DNA of 64,000 bases from Acaryochloris sp. IP29b_bin.148 (lineage in GTDB: Bacteria > Cyanobacteriota > Cyanobacteriia > Thermosynechococcales > Thermosynechococcaceae). Shown piece by piece: positions 6,054 to 10,713 of this stretch (positions within the stretch are counted from its first letter, which is position 1; each line of letters starts with the position of its first letter). The notes under the pieces were generated by a model. That model saw only the letters and a list, made by a program, of their open reading frames with translations, ran no database searches and had not been told where the DNA came from. The position numbers and the translations under genes are program-made. The stretch lies in NCBI RefSeq assembly GCF_028285565.1, contig NZ_JANQOY010000046.1:1-64000 (forward strand). The letters run 5' to 3'.

Positions 6054-6356
6054 TTAGTCCCGTTGTAAGACTTCTTGAATCTCTTGAAGAGTAGGACCGC
6101 CAAAGAAAATAACATTCCAAAGGATCGAGAATAAAATCGGTGCCAACACTAGGACAAGCCGGAGGTCTAGTCCAGCAATCACCTGGGGAGCGACTGCCTC
6201 ATAGATGTCACTACGGTTGATAAACTGCATGGATGCGATCGCACCGATAAACCACACCAATGGCACTCCCAAGGTGTGAACGGCCAACCACCGAACCGTA
6301 TAAATGGGATATTTCTGTTGCTTCTGAGGACGCTGAAGCTGGGTTCTAGCTGTCAT
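6054..6356 (-). CDS. psbF: Cytochrome b559 beta subunit fused to a PsbY-like helix
   Basis: Residues 15-48 match Psb[18 protein letters not shown] and [12 protein letters not shown], with His27 as the expected heme ligand. Normal PsbF is about 44 residues, but this product is 100. After a ~14-residue linker, residues 63-98 ([19 protein letters not shown], then a [12 protein letters not shown] tail) look like PsbY, a single-helix PSII subunit that packs beside cytochrome b559. PsbF runs stroma to lumen and PsbY lumen to stroma, so the fusion is topologically sensible. Translation is led by an AGGAG that overlaps the psbE stop. The PsbF part is certain; the PsbY part is a motif-level judgement. 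Confidence 0.85.
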
Positions 6357-6368
6357 ATCTAATTTCTC

Positions 6369-6641
6369 CTAGTTATTAGCGTCAGGATTGAGTTTGAACT
6401 GGCGAAAATCATTGATTTGCTGTTTGCCAGCATACCGATCCGTCACAATTTGAATCTGAGACTCAGATTGAGAGAAATATTCATTAGGGCGAGGTGTCCC
6501 AAATACATCGTAAGCAAGCCCAGTACTGACAAAGAACCAACCCGAGATAAAAATAGCTGGAATATTAATAACATGGAGCTTCCAGAAGGATAAATCGGTG
6601 ATTATCTCGCCAAATGGACGTTCACCAGTTCTACCTGACAT
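6369..6641 (-). CDS. psbE: Cytochrome b559 alpha subunit, divergent copy
   Basis: This 90-residue protein keeps the PsbE framework: [12 protein letters not shown], the heme-ligand helix [15 protein letters not shown] with His23, then [20 protein letters not shown] and a lumenal tail. It is slightly longer than the usual 81-84 residues and differs from the canonical sequence in the N-terminal helix ([10 protein letters not shown] for the usual RYWVIHSIT). It is first in a two-gene operon with psbFY and has an AGGAG ribosome site six bases before the ATG. The expected psbL and psbJ do not follow. It may be a specialised paralogue; whether a standard psbEFLJ operon exists elsewhere cannot be seen here. 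Confidence 0.9.
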
Positions 6642-6660: not shown

Positions 6661-6675
6661 TGAGAATAATTCTTA
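6661..6675. promoter_or_regulatory. Candidate Fur/PerR-type 7-1-7 operator
   Basis: TGAGAATAATTCTTA is a 7-1-7 inverted repeat: TGAGAAT, one base, ATTCTTA, with six of seven pairs symmetric. It agrees with the Fur-family pattern TGATAAT-N-ATTATCA at 11 of 14 positions. It covers the start point expected from the promoter next to it and lies 20 bases before the psbE ATG, a typical repressor position. A Fur-family gene lies 400 bases away. Binding is inferred. Confidence 0.5.
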
Positions 6676-6678
6676 CTC

Positions 6679-6707
6679 AGAATACTACTATTGATATTAA
6701 TTTTCAA
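6679..6707 (-). promoter_or_regulatory. Candidate promoter of psbE-psbFY
   Basis: On the minus strand, TTGAAA (6707-6702) and TATTCT (6684-6679) are 17 bases apart, with the predicted start near 6672, inside the Fur-like box. A second inverted repeat, TATTGA...TCAATA (6689-6709), overlaps the -35 region. Confidence 0.5.
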
Positions 6708-7082: not shown

Positions 7083-7532
7083 ATGTATACTACTAGTTCA
7101 CTCAAAGCAGAATTAAATGAGAAAGGCTGGCGACTCACCCCACAACGGGAAATTATCTTGACGGCCTTTCAAGACTTACCAAAAGGTCAACATCTCAGCG
7201 CAGAAGACCTCTATGAGCTGTTACTGAAAAAAGGAACACCCATCAGTCTCTCGACGATATATCGCAATACCAAGCTGATGTCCCATATGGGGATTTTACG
7301 GGAATTGGAATTTGCGGAAGGGCACAAGCACTATGAATTGAATCAACCCTACCCCAACCACCACCATCACCTTATTTGCGTGAAATGCAATCAAACCATT
7401 GAATTTAGGAGCGATTCGATCCTGAAAGTGGGTAAAACCAAGGCAAAGCAAGCAGGTTTCCACCTACTAGATTGCCAGTTGACCATTCATGCCATTTGTC
7501 CCCCCTGTCAAACCCCCACTTACTCTGAATAA
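7083..7532 (+). CDS. Fur-family metal/peroxide-responsive repressor
   Basis: The 149-residue protein is a full Fur-family regulator. A winged helix comes first (GWRLTPQREIIL and SLSTIYRNTKLM, recognition helix about residues 55-68). The dimerisation domain follows with the HHHH metal motif (93-96) and two CxxC pairs (C99-C102, C139-C142) for structural zinc. The closing LLDCQLTIHAICPPC segment resembles the cyanobacterial PerR/FurC branch as I remember it, but Fur proper cannot be excluded. Its placement between a psbE paralogue with a Fur-like box and a ferritin-like gene suggests it controls both neighbours. It may sense iron or peroxide. Confidence 0.9.
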   Translation: MYTTSSLKAELNEKGWRLTPQREIILTAFQDLPKGQHLSAEDLYELLLKKGTPISLSTIYRNTKLMSHMGILRELEFAEGHKHYELNQPYPNHHHHLICVKCNQTIEFRSDSILKVGKTKAKQAGFHLLDCQLTIHAICPPCQTPTYSE

Positions 7533-7599: not shown

Positions 7600-8034
7600 A
7601 TGAAAGAGCTAGATACTCAAACAACCATCAAGTTATTGAATCAGATTATGGAGTTTGAGTTAGCAGGGGTAGTCCGGTATACCCACTACAGTCTGATGGT
7701 CACTGGGCCAAACCGATTACCGATTGTTGAGTTCTTTCAGGCACAAGCGAGTGAATCGCTGCTCCATGCCCAAGAGGCTGGAGAGATTCTCACGGGTTTA
7801 GAAGGGCATCCCAGCCAGCGCATTGCGCCCATCGAAGAGACCAACCAGCACGCAGTGCAAAATTTATTAGAAGAAAGCCTTTACCATGAACAAACGGCAT
7901 TATCCCTCTATAAGCAGCTGTTGGATGTGGTTCAAGATGCAACGGTCTATTTAGAAGAGTTTGCTCGTACCAAAATTGGTCAAGAAGAACTTCATACTTT
8001 AGAAATTAGGAAAATGCTACGAGATTTCAGCTAG
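7600..8034 (+). CDS. Ferritin-like (bacterioferritin-type) iron protein
   Basis: The 144-residue sequence predicts a four-helix bundle of the bacterioferritin/Dps superfamily. Candidate diiron ligands are in helix 1 (IMEFELAG, E18/E20), helix 2 (SESLLHAQEAGE with His56 aligned to the bacterioferritin helix-2 histidine), helix 3 (EESLYHEQ) and helix 4 (GQEELHTLE, E129-x2-H132). HAQEAGEILTGLEG aligns well with the HADRYIERILFLEG stretch of bacterioferritin, although the acidic residue three positions before His56 is Ser. No heme-ligating Met is evident. It follows the Fur-family gene by 67 bases in the same direction. Iron storage or peroxide detoxification is the likely role. Confidence 0.8.
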   Translation: MKELDTQTTIKLLNQIMEFELAGVVRYTHYSLMVTGPNRLPIVEFFQAQASESLLHAQEAGEILTGLEGHPSQRIAPIEETNQHAVQNLLEESLYHEQTALSLYKQLLDVVQDATVYLEEFARTKIGQEELHTLEIRKMLRDFS

Positions 8035-8886: not shown

Positions 8887-10713
8887 ATGACGGATCGTCG
8901 ACAGGATTCTTATGCCGTCCGAGTTGAAGCAGCGGAACTGGCTAGAAGTCGGAATCACCCTAACCATCAAGCGAATGGCGATGAGCAACGATATGCGGGC
9001 GACCAATACTTCATGTCTTTTACAAAGGGATTACCTCACAATCCTGATACTGGATTGTTAGAAGATCCACAAGATTTTGTAGAATTTCGTCGTGCCATTG
9101 ATGACGGCTTTATTGACCCTTTTTCTGATAGAGTTCGCCACGGTGCTTTATTTGTTGTGGGTGCTGGTGGAGTAATGCCTGACCCAGCCCCAACTAATGA
9201 TTTTCGACAGTGGGAAGCACCCACAGCAGGGGTCGTTTTCGAGTTAGAGGGACCGGATGCCCAGGCGGTAACCATGCCCCCCGCGCCTCCCTTAGTGGAT
9301 GCCAGTGGCAATGTGAATCCAGAGCTAGTTTTTGAAATGGCAGAAGTTTATGAACTCGCCATTCTGCGAGATCAGCCCTTCAATGACTTTGAGACTGGAA
9401 CAGCCAATGCTGACATTACCAACTCAATTGCCCGCCTAAATGCGCTTAGTTATATAACCAATGGTCAACCTGGACGCCCTCGGAAAGTCGATAGTGCAGG
9501 CGAACTTGATCCACAAACGGTATTCCGAGGATCTTCTCCAGGGGTAGAGGTTGGTCCTTATCTGTCTCAGTTTTTACTGATCGGTAATACTGACCGTAAT
9601 GGCAACGGTAGCGTCGATCAAGGTTTGATTACGTATGGTGTGTTGCACATCGATCAAAAAGTTCCCCTTGCCCAACCTGGGGAAGACTATATGCGGGAAA
9701 TGGATGACTATGTCCTTGTTCAGCGCGGCATTAGGCCAGGTCCAGAAAATTATGTCCCAGATGGCGGGGCCTCTTCTCGCCCATTACGCCGCTTTATCTC
9801 AACGCCCCGAGATCTAGCCACCTACGTGCATTATGATGCGCTGTACGAAGCCTATCTCAATGCTTGTATTATTCTGTTGGAGATGGGAACCCCGTTCGAT
9901 CCTAGCTTTGATCACTTGTCTGGTGTAGGGGCAGCCGCTAGTAGTGCGTCTACTCGACGGAATGCAGGTGGTTTTGCCCTGTATGGTGGCCCACATATTC
10001 TCAATCTGGTAACCGAAGTGGCAACACGTGCCCTAAAGGCCGTGCGTTTTCAGAAGTTCAATAACCATATTCGCCTACGGCCAGAAGCATTGGCCGCTCG
10101 CCTTGAACTCGTTCGACTCGGCTTACCTGCTCCTCCAGCGTTGATATCTAGTATGGGAACGTTTAGGGGAATATTAGAGAACAATAGTGGGGGGACATTA
10201 AATGCGATCGCAGCCCTTCCAGGTGTGGGGGCAGGCAGTTATTTCTTACCGATGGCATTCCCTGAAGGCTCACCGATGCACCCTGCCTATGGTGCTGGCC
10301 ACGCTACAGTGGCCGGAGCCTGTGTCACGATACTCAAGGCATTTTTCGATACCAGTGCAGTACTGGCCGAATCAGGTGGAACGGTGACCTTTAAGCGATT
10401 GAGTAGCGGTGATACTCCAATTGCCTTTCGTGCCCCTGCTATATCTAACCCGCCTGGAGGGACGCTTGATGCCTCTACTCCAGATGAGTTTCTGACCTTA
10501 GAAGGTGAGCTGAATAAGCTTGCAGCCAATATTTCTATTGGTCGGGACATGGCAGGAGTTCATTACTTTACTGACTACTACGATAGTTTGCGCATGGGTG
10601 AGGAAATTGCGATCGGTATTCTAGAAGAGCAGGCCTTAACCTATTCAACGGATCCCTTTGTATTATCTTTGCCCACTTTTGATGGCGACGTTAGGAGGAT
10701 TGGCAGCCGATGA
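8887..10713 (+). CDS. Vanadium-dependent haloperoxidase (bromoperoxidase type)
   Basis: This 608-residue enzyme belongs to the algal-type vanadium haloperoxidases, which oxidise halides with hydrogen peroxide. The vanadate pocket is readable: Lys390 and Arg398 (FQKFNNHIRLRPE), HPAYGAGHA with His465 and acid-base His472, and GRDMAGVHY with Arg553 and axial His559. Spacings match the Corallina enzyme. The Ser found two residues before the acid-base His in Corallina is Ala470 here. No signal peptide is evident. The protein closely recalls the characterised Acaryochloris marina enzyme. Its stop overlaps the start of the next gene as ATGA, so the two are probably co-translated. Halide preference cannot be read directly. 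Confidence 0.95.
   Translation: MTDRRQDSYAVRVEAAELARSRNHPNHQANGDEQRYAGDQYFMSFTKGLPHNPDTGLLEDPQDFVEFRRAIDDGFIDPFSDRVRHGALFVVGAGGVMPDPAPTNDFRQWEAPTAGVVFELEGPDAQAVTMPPAPPLVDASGNVNPELVFEMAEVYELAILRDQPFNDFETGTANADITNSIARLNALSYITNGQPGRPRKVDSAGELDPQTVFRGSSPGVEVGPYLSQFLLIGNTDRNGNGSVDQGLITYGVLHIDQKVPLAQPGEDYMREMDDYVLVQRGIRPGPENYVPDGGASSRPLRRFISTPRDLATYVHYDALYEAYLNACIILLEMGTPFDPSFDHLSGVGAAASSASTRRNAGGFALYGGPHILNLVTEVATRALKAVRFQKFNNHIRLRPEALAARLELVRLGLPAPPALISSMGTFRGILENNSGGTLNAIAALPGVGAGSYFLPMAFPEGSPMHPAYGAGHATVAGACVTILKAFFDTSAVLAESGGTVTFKRLSSGDTPIAFRAPAISNPPGGTLDASTPDEFLTLEGELNKLAANISIGRDMAGVHYFTDYYDSLRMGEEIAIGILEEQALTYSTDPFVLSLPTFDGDVRRIGSR

Follow-up and report, generated by a model that had tools for sequence, protein, structure and literature searches.

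The cyanobacterium Acaryochloris sp. IP29b_bin.148 encodes, in the 64,000-nucleotide stretch of DNA analysed here (the window), a protein in which the cytochrome b559 beta subunit PsbF runs on into a second helix that is almost surely homologous to PsbY. The fused gene, psbFY, is virtually certain to be real, and together with a paralogous alpha-subunit gene immediately upstream, psbE2, it very likely forms a reserve cytochrome b559. Our full reading, to which we give a probability of about 0.5, is that this reserve cytochrome, with PsbY tethered to it and with an altered haem pocket, would be used under metal or oxidative stress. The relevant features of the window are listed below; genomes and loci are denoted by G and L numbers, the window genome being G000.

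6054..6356, minus strand: psbFY, the PsbF-PsbY fusion (ATG at 6356, stop at 6054; 100 aa; 0 internal stops)
6213..6356, minus strand: PsbF half, residues 1-48, with axial His27 (TIGR01333)
6171..6212, minus strand: linker, residues 49-62, lumenal if the PsbF topology is normal
6057..6170, minus strand: PsbY-like half, residues 63-100 (PF06298, NF009711, hhalign)
6369..6641, minus strand: psbE2, paralogous cytochrome b559 alpha subunit, 90 aa, His23, Ser18 (TIGR01332)
6661..6706, minus strand: two near-palindromic boxes upstream of psbE2, TAAGAATTATTCTCA and TGAAAATTAATATCA, possible Fur-family operators
7083..7532, plus strand: divergent Fur-family regulator (PF01475, E = 1.3e-39)
7600..8034, plus strand: ferritin-like protein (PF00210, E = 4.7e-17; cluster 14)

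The product of psbFY is 100 aa long and has two predicted long helices, as opposed to the approximately 44 aa and single helix of PsbF. Residues 8-48 scored 67.3 bits against TIGR01333, the equivalog model for cytochrome b559 beta, which has a cut-off of 61.15, and the first-pass annotation, made from the sequence of the window, had been right to recognize a complete PsbF with its axial haem ligand at His27. An AF2 model placed long helices at residues 18-46 and 65-99 with low confidence (mean pLDDT, 64), and a Foldseek search with this weak model returned no match. If the normal membrane topology of PsbF is kept, the linker at residues 49-62 would be lumenal. The psbE2 gene lies 12 nt upstream of psbFY, and neither psbL nor psbJ is found behind the pair. 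A search for phage origin yielded no PHROGs match for the three proteins tried. The same joined frame recurs intact in 14 assemblies and is therefore not a local sequencing error, which had been named as a possible source of the fusion; these assemblies, together with the low ratios of nonsynonymous to synonymous (N/S) differences described below, also rule out a chance read-through.

Residues 63-96 of the window protein matched positions 1-34 of the 35 in the Pfam PsbY family PF06298 (19.0 bits; E = 0.0012), and the C-terminal segment alone scored 20.6 bits (E = 4e-4) against a cut-off of 24. The PsbY model NF009711 gave 20.8-23.4 bits (23.4 with E = 3e-5 for the segment alone; cut-off, 48). 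The window protein is thus below both curated cut-offs, and PsbY is the only family that Pfam or NCBIfam reports for the second-helix segment. Among the 14 fused proteins, six passed the Pfam cut-off, at 24.4 (G683, locus L057), 24.6 (G109), 25.1 (G199), 25.3 (L061), 28.2 (G105) and 29.9 bits (G674); eight, the window's included, fell below it, the lowest score, 15.9, belonging to G031, for which the copy scored was short at its N-terminus.

Alignment of the 14 intact fused halves with 20 standalone PsbY loci by hhalign gave a probability of 97.6 (E = 3.8e-12; score, 52.7 over 38 columns), and the maximum score in 100 column shuffles was 15.3. This comparison covered both strands and all rows and reproduced the outcome of a first run, for which 10 of the 14 halves had been chosen, along with 10 standalone PsbY that a script restricted to plus strands had found (score, 48.9; probability, 97.7). 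There, 200 shuffles scored 13.4 or less, and reversed columns, PsbF, PsbE, PsbJ and PsbL used as controls scored 3.4-9.5. A profile of seven fused halves, one of them a remnant in G005, retrieved, next after the fused genes, frames from 39 genomes with E values of 5.9e-8 to 8.5e-5; these read as PsbY in 18/18 loci inspected. The PsbY-like segment proposed by the first-pass annotation has thus stood up to profile searches. A resemblance by accident, with the second helix an unrelated membrane anchor, is very improbable and nearly refuted already: it would suit the low Pfam scores of the window protein and 7 of the 13 other fused proteins, but not the controlled hhalign result, the six proteins above the cut-off or the standalone PsbY frames that the fused-half profile reached next.

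Each half departs from its nearest known relatives. Like PsbF (TIGR01333, PF00283), psbFY keeps the haem histidine, Arg19, the helix and the MQF end, but it runs on into a second helix and belongs to a second gene pair. The fused halves share with PsbY (PF06298, NF009711) the D-x-R start (11/14), the Pro and Trp (14/14) and a similar length; they are, however, not free-standing and carry Ser where 10 aligned standalone PsbY carry Ala, and FG and T-x-x-E are constant in 10 aligned fused halves. The long form of PsbF (NF002717 and NF002720; 97-98 positions) likewise consists of PsbF and an extra stretch, but its PsbF part lies at the C-terminal end of the profiles, and psbFY scored below both cut-offs (53.7 versus 153 and 46.7 versus 127, respectively). 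In Synechococcus PCC 7335, psbF2 is also a second PsbF and was found in PSII, but it is a single-helix protein with 75% identity to PsbF1, and its operon also contains psbO1, an nblA paralogue and psbV, according to the available text of that report (PMC8689208). The plant psbY locus, as described in the accessible part of PMC4823308, also embeds PsbY in a longer product, but there PsbY-1 is joined to PsbY-2 and the product is processed into single helices.

Several other small membrane proteins were encountered during these searches. A picocyanobacterium with a 1.8-Mb genome (G054; L235:405-695, minus strand) has a second PsbF paralogue of 96 aa, with an extra N-terminal helix and with Asn instead of the haem His (TVRTLAVNALG). 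By eye, its N-terminal helix resembles single-helix mini-ORFs of 39-41 aa with a PsbY-like D-x-R start, which lie near the Ni-SOD (sodN) block of Acaryochloris (L002:1477-1596, plus strand; L006:2607-2732, minus strand). The L002 mini-ORF reached at best E = 0.28 against PsbY, and that in L006 had no significant match in Pfam or NCBIfam. At the picocyanobacterial psbY loci L148, L149 and L155-L157, PsbY ends open frames of 75-132 codons, where it is preceded by a hydrophobic stretch whose translation is putative.

The partner gene, psbE2, matched TIGR01332 at 122.4 bits (cut-off, 93.95) with the axial His23 kept, and the lumenal domain of its product is retained (PF00284, 70.3 bits). Position 18 sets it apart: Arg occupies this position in 69/69 standard PsbE, whereas the 13 fused-clade rows have Ser (6), Gln (5), Glu (1) or Leu (1), the standard pairs being drawn almost wholly from the pattern-picked best 80 of 528 matches and thus not a random sample. 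Acaryochloris PsbE2 has Ser18. The 13 rows comprise 12 intact loci and an IS-cut locus, L076, and leave out G109, which has Gln at position 18, and L061, which has no psbE2. Both axial histidines, Arg8 of PsbE and Arg19 of PsbF are conserved in 13/13 rows. Asn26 and Ser33 of PsbE and Tyr16 and Trp32 of PsbF are likewise constant in the fused clade and occur in none of the 69 standard pairs, in which both of these PsbF positions are Phe.

According to the accessible part of PMC4709441, the haem propionates are contacted by Arg8 and Arg18 of the alpha subunit and by Arg19 of the beta subunit, and exchange of Arg18 for Ser in T. elongatus (R18S-alpha) altered the redox forms and made the mutant sensitive to light, with a reduced PQ pool. 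In Arabidopsis without PsbY, the available text of PMC9214863 describes cytochrome b559 in the low-potential form only. The module would therefore carry both a change that should perturb the high-potential form and, tethered to it, the very subunit needed for that form, and its net redox potential is not predictable from sequence. An effect of the fusion on redox potential, as suggested in the first-pass annotation, is plausible, and more so given the loss of Arg18 from PsbE2.

We built a tree from an alignment of PsbE and the PsbF core (114 columns), with the PsbY half excluded. Eleven fused pairs were separated from 69 standard pairs with support of 100/99, values from a bootstrap that had not settled. 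The sole nominally standard row inside the fused clade was that of Leptolyngbya sp. Heron Island J (L076), which is itself an IS-cut fusion, its PsbY half being interrupted by an apparent transposase gene. With L076 labelled standard, the fused label changed twice on the tree, and a single clade was not rejected by the AU test (p = 0.258). The tree omits repeat loci (L055, L056, L058, L060 and L062), loci with no detectable psbE-psbF pair (L059, L061, L083, L086, L110, L132 and L170) and G674, which was found later. These sequences would be best explained by a single ancient fusion that was later transferred or lost. The frame had at first been taken for the genome's own psbF with a tail; it is instead one half of a paralogous pair, psbE2-psbFY, in a clade of its own.

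The fusion is rare and scattered among cyanobacteria. Intact copies were found in 14 assemblies of several families, and two further copies are broken. Eleven of 388 genomes sampled from the class had an intact fusion, with a remnant in G005 and an IS-cut copy in G181. Across the 63 genomes of the order of G199, the intact frame occurred only in G364, G199 and G105 and the cut frame in G181, all other matches being standard psbF. One of two genomes in the order of G031 and two of six in that of G099 carried an intact fusion. Searches that scored up to 13 candidates per genome found it in 2 of 388 genomes of the order of G201 (G674 and G683) and, among 386 genomes of the phylum, in the window genome only; the genome sets searched overlap. 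A contig scan, limited to the best 80 of 528 matches, added Pelatocladus (L061). Within Acaryochloris, five of the seven genus genomes examined have the intact fusion, in addition to the G005 remnant. Carriers outside the genus (G031, G364, G199, G105, G099, G109, G674, G683 and L061) are Cyanothece SIO2G6, Pseudanabaenales MAG.87, a MAG labelled Trichodesmium, Pelatocladus and five more.

Most carriers also have the standard genes. The search for a standard psbF set elsewhere in the window genome, as the first-pass annotation had advised, was successful: contig C75 holds the last part of psbF, at the contig edge, with psbL and psbJ. A standard psbF was also present in 13/14 carriers of the intact or IS-cut gene (truncated at a contig edge and scoring under the cut-off in G000 and G001) and was not found in G004, an assembly that is 87% complete. 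The accompanying search for a separate psbY was answered in part, with standalone copies in G001-G005 and G031 and none found in G006 or in the window genome, also 87% complete. We rejected replacement of a genome's only psbF or psbY by the fusion on the strength of these standard copies.

In A. marina, the psbE2-psbFY pair is presumably AM1_1130/AM1_1129, as judged from their adjacent tags and their names. AM1_1129 is annotated as PsbF, and in the available portion of the transcriptome table AM1_1130 (psbE) stood at 47, 21 and 33 RPKM and AM1_1129 (psbF) at 20, 20 and 20 RPKM under control, microoxic and hyperoxic conditions, respectively, compared with 34,459, 11,070 and 17,313 RPKM for the psbE gene AM1_2630; that portion lists no psbF besides AM1_1129 (PMC5295598). 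The presumed pair is thus almost silent at all three oxygen levels. In the A. marina-like G002, psbE and psbL flank an intact short psbF of 44 aa. Kiss et al. (2012) reportedly inferred an alpha-alpha homodimer of cytochrome b559, psbF being hardly expressed. Since the short psbF is unlisted in the available table portion, that argument may rest on the wrong psbF, with the proviso that G002 is A. marina-like and is not MBIC11017.

Chain F of PDB entries 7YMI and 7YMM is the A. marina fusion, a 99-aa sequence labelled "Photosystem II protein Y" that aligned with the window protein over its whole length at 185 bits, and chain E is a standard PsbE. Neither the short PsbF of G002 nor its standalone PsbY had a close counterpart among PDB chains. 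The 7YMI entry is the A. marina PSII-Pcb structure, credited to Shen et al. 2024 in the accessible parts of PMC12661325 and PMC12138183. Taken as deposited, these chains would imply that mature A. marina PSII normally uses PsbFY as its beta subunit, together with standard PsbE. We regard this as unlikely, given the 20 RPKM of AM1_1129 as opposed to 34,459 for AM1_2630 and the presence in G002 of a short psbF flanked by psbE and psbL. As that psbF is unlisted in the table portion, the correct sequence may not have been available to the depositors. Either chain F was misassigned or our pairing of psbE2 with psbFY is wrong, and we infer misassignment. The first-pass statement that no example had been described holds in part: a described PsbF-PsbY fusion was not found among the titles and abstract openings listed from the open-licence literature, nor any text treating the protein as one, but the chain F sequence and the AM1_1129 annotation already existed.

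Metal-related and SOD genes recur around psbE2-psbFY. A divergent Fur-family gene adjoins psbE2 in all five fused Acaryochloris, at the same place in G001-G004 as in the window, and also lies beside the G005 remnant. The two boxes upstream of psbE2 are largely conserved in these five genomes; their match to the Fur-box consensus is weak (for the 15-base form, shuffle fractions ranged from 0.005 to 0.085 among loci). The ferritin-like gene is close to two fused loci, those of the window and of G199, in the latter at about 3 kb from psbE2. The G199 locus also has a FecCD permease, the G364 and G674 loci have TonB receptors, and G674 has CbiM as well. A HupE-like gene and Ni-SOD accompany the loci in G001, G003 and G004 (the HupE call in G004 rests on Pfam and the Ni-SOD call in G001 on NCBIfam, all others on similarity); in the window genome, the Ni-SOD block is on a different contig. 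An Fe/Mn-type SOD occurs at the Pelatocladus locus, and a cation-efflux gene and an ArsR regulator occur at the G031 locus.

A metal or SOD gene was found within 6 kb of 10/15 fused loci and 0/71 standard psbF loci, in categories chosen after looking. With AraC, ABC ATPase, antenna and ArsR genes added, the counts were 11/15 and 2/71. A p-value for this contrast is no test, because the categories were picked from the fused loci and the standard loci share one conserved operon. Five of the 15 fused loci had no listed metal or SOD gene nearby: G099, G109, L057 and G181 had no such neighbour, and G105 had an AraC-type regulator only. In Pelatocladus (L061:966-1954), psbFY lies right behind the Fe/Mn-type SOD gene and is not accompanied by psbE2. 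Elsewhere in the window, a 608-aa ORF (8887-10713, plus strand) matched no Pfam family at E = 0.1; we take it to be reminiscent of vanadium haloperoxidases.

Two further recurrent neighbours, cl4 and cl5 (TPR), have signal-like N-termini by eye. The cl4 protein (about 200 aa; for example, L230:6672-7307 and L172:5469-6104, both plus strand) had no significant Pfam or NCBIfam match. It is encoded in 10 of the 388 class genomes, nine of which carry psbFY intact or broken; conversely, 9/13 genomes with an intact or broken psbFY have cl4, which is missing from G003, G364, G099 and G109. This co-occurrence has a Fisher p of 1.4e-14, or 2e-7 without Acaryochloris, uncorrected for shared ancestry. 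The one cl4 genome without psbFY, G311, has cl5-cl4 next to a haem oxygenase. In G000, G001, G002, G004 and G005, cl5 and cl4 adjoin a CP43/IsiA-type antenna gene (confirmed by PF00421 in G000 and G002), the end of which is about 4.6 kb from psbE2 in the A. marina-like G002. An extra PsbY-like mini-ORF follows psbFY at five loci (L061, L165, L168, L169 and L170), and both of those tested with Pfam exceeded the PsbY cut-off.

The SOD genes close by, of the Ni type in G001, G003 and G004 and of the Fe/Mn type in L061, and the co-occurrence of cl4 with psbFY would also suit a small membrane haem protein outside mature PSII that serves superoxide or metal homeostasis with cl4 and cl5 as partners. 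The parts that contact PSII, namely the PsbE2 lumenal domain and the PsbY half, are conserved, however, which makes this alternative as unlikely as that of a normal subunit. We consider that psbE2-psbFY probably works within PSII.

Selection has acted on the pair. Pooled over the five Acaryochloris, the N/S difference ratio was 0.074 for the PsbF half, 0.146 for the PsbY half and 0.159 for psbE2, several of the synonymous distances being saturated. The gene is broken in G005, by truncation, and in Leptolyngbya sp. Heron Island J (L076/G181), by the IS, and is therefore dispensable. In G005 (L011:1483-1659), psbE2 and the PsbF half are gone, and the PsbY half persists as an open 59-codon frame by the Fur gene. 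These two breaks and the silence of the presumed A. marina pair are what a degenerating duplicate without function would show, but the low ratios in both halves and the intact frames in 14 assemblies render decay improbable. Adaptation to far-red light or chlorophyll d has slightly poorer prospects still: the intact gene in five of the seven Acaryochloris genomes examined, with the G005 remnant, would agree with it, as would the rise of A. marina "psbE2" in far-red light in the accessible part of PMC5438491, where which of the two psbE genes is meant is unspecified, but the fusion occurs in other families too.

In the reserve cytochrome b559 that we favour, a single b haem would sit between a histidine of PsbE2 and one of the PsbF half of PsbFY, the arrangement of the standard cytochrome, and the PsbY helix would return through the membrane next to this haem. 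The covalent link suggests that the PsbY half lies next to cytochrome b559 in PSII. Because PsbY is built into the beta subunit, the reserve cytochrome would never be without the protein that Arabidopsis needs for the high-potential form, and the loss of Arg18, one of three arginines touching the propionates, would tune the haem pocket differently. The pair may stand in for PsbE, PsbF and PsbY in a fraction of PSII centres, or in forms of PSII that are being assembled or repaired. It would be called on under high oxidative stress or a shortage of metal, with iron the likeliest candidate; use under such stress is an even bet, and the outcome would be a cytochrome b559 with altered redox potential for photoprotection. 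More tentatively, and with the odds somewhat against it, PsbE2, PsbFY, the further PsbY-like peptide of some lineages, cl4 and cl5 might constitute an alternative cytochrome b559 module under Fur- or AraC-type regulators that converts a fraction of PSII to a form suited to metal stress or photoprotection.

The role of cytochrome b559 in PSII and the control of its redox form by PsbY are old open questions. The psbE2-psbFY pair is a natural paralogue in which PsbY is tied to the beta subunit and a propionate arginine has been removed, and it bears on the sequence assigned to chain F of 7YMI and 7YMM. Moved into laboratory cyanobacteria, it would allow a direct test of both questions.
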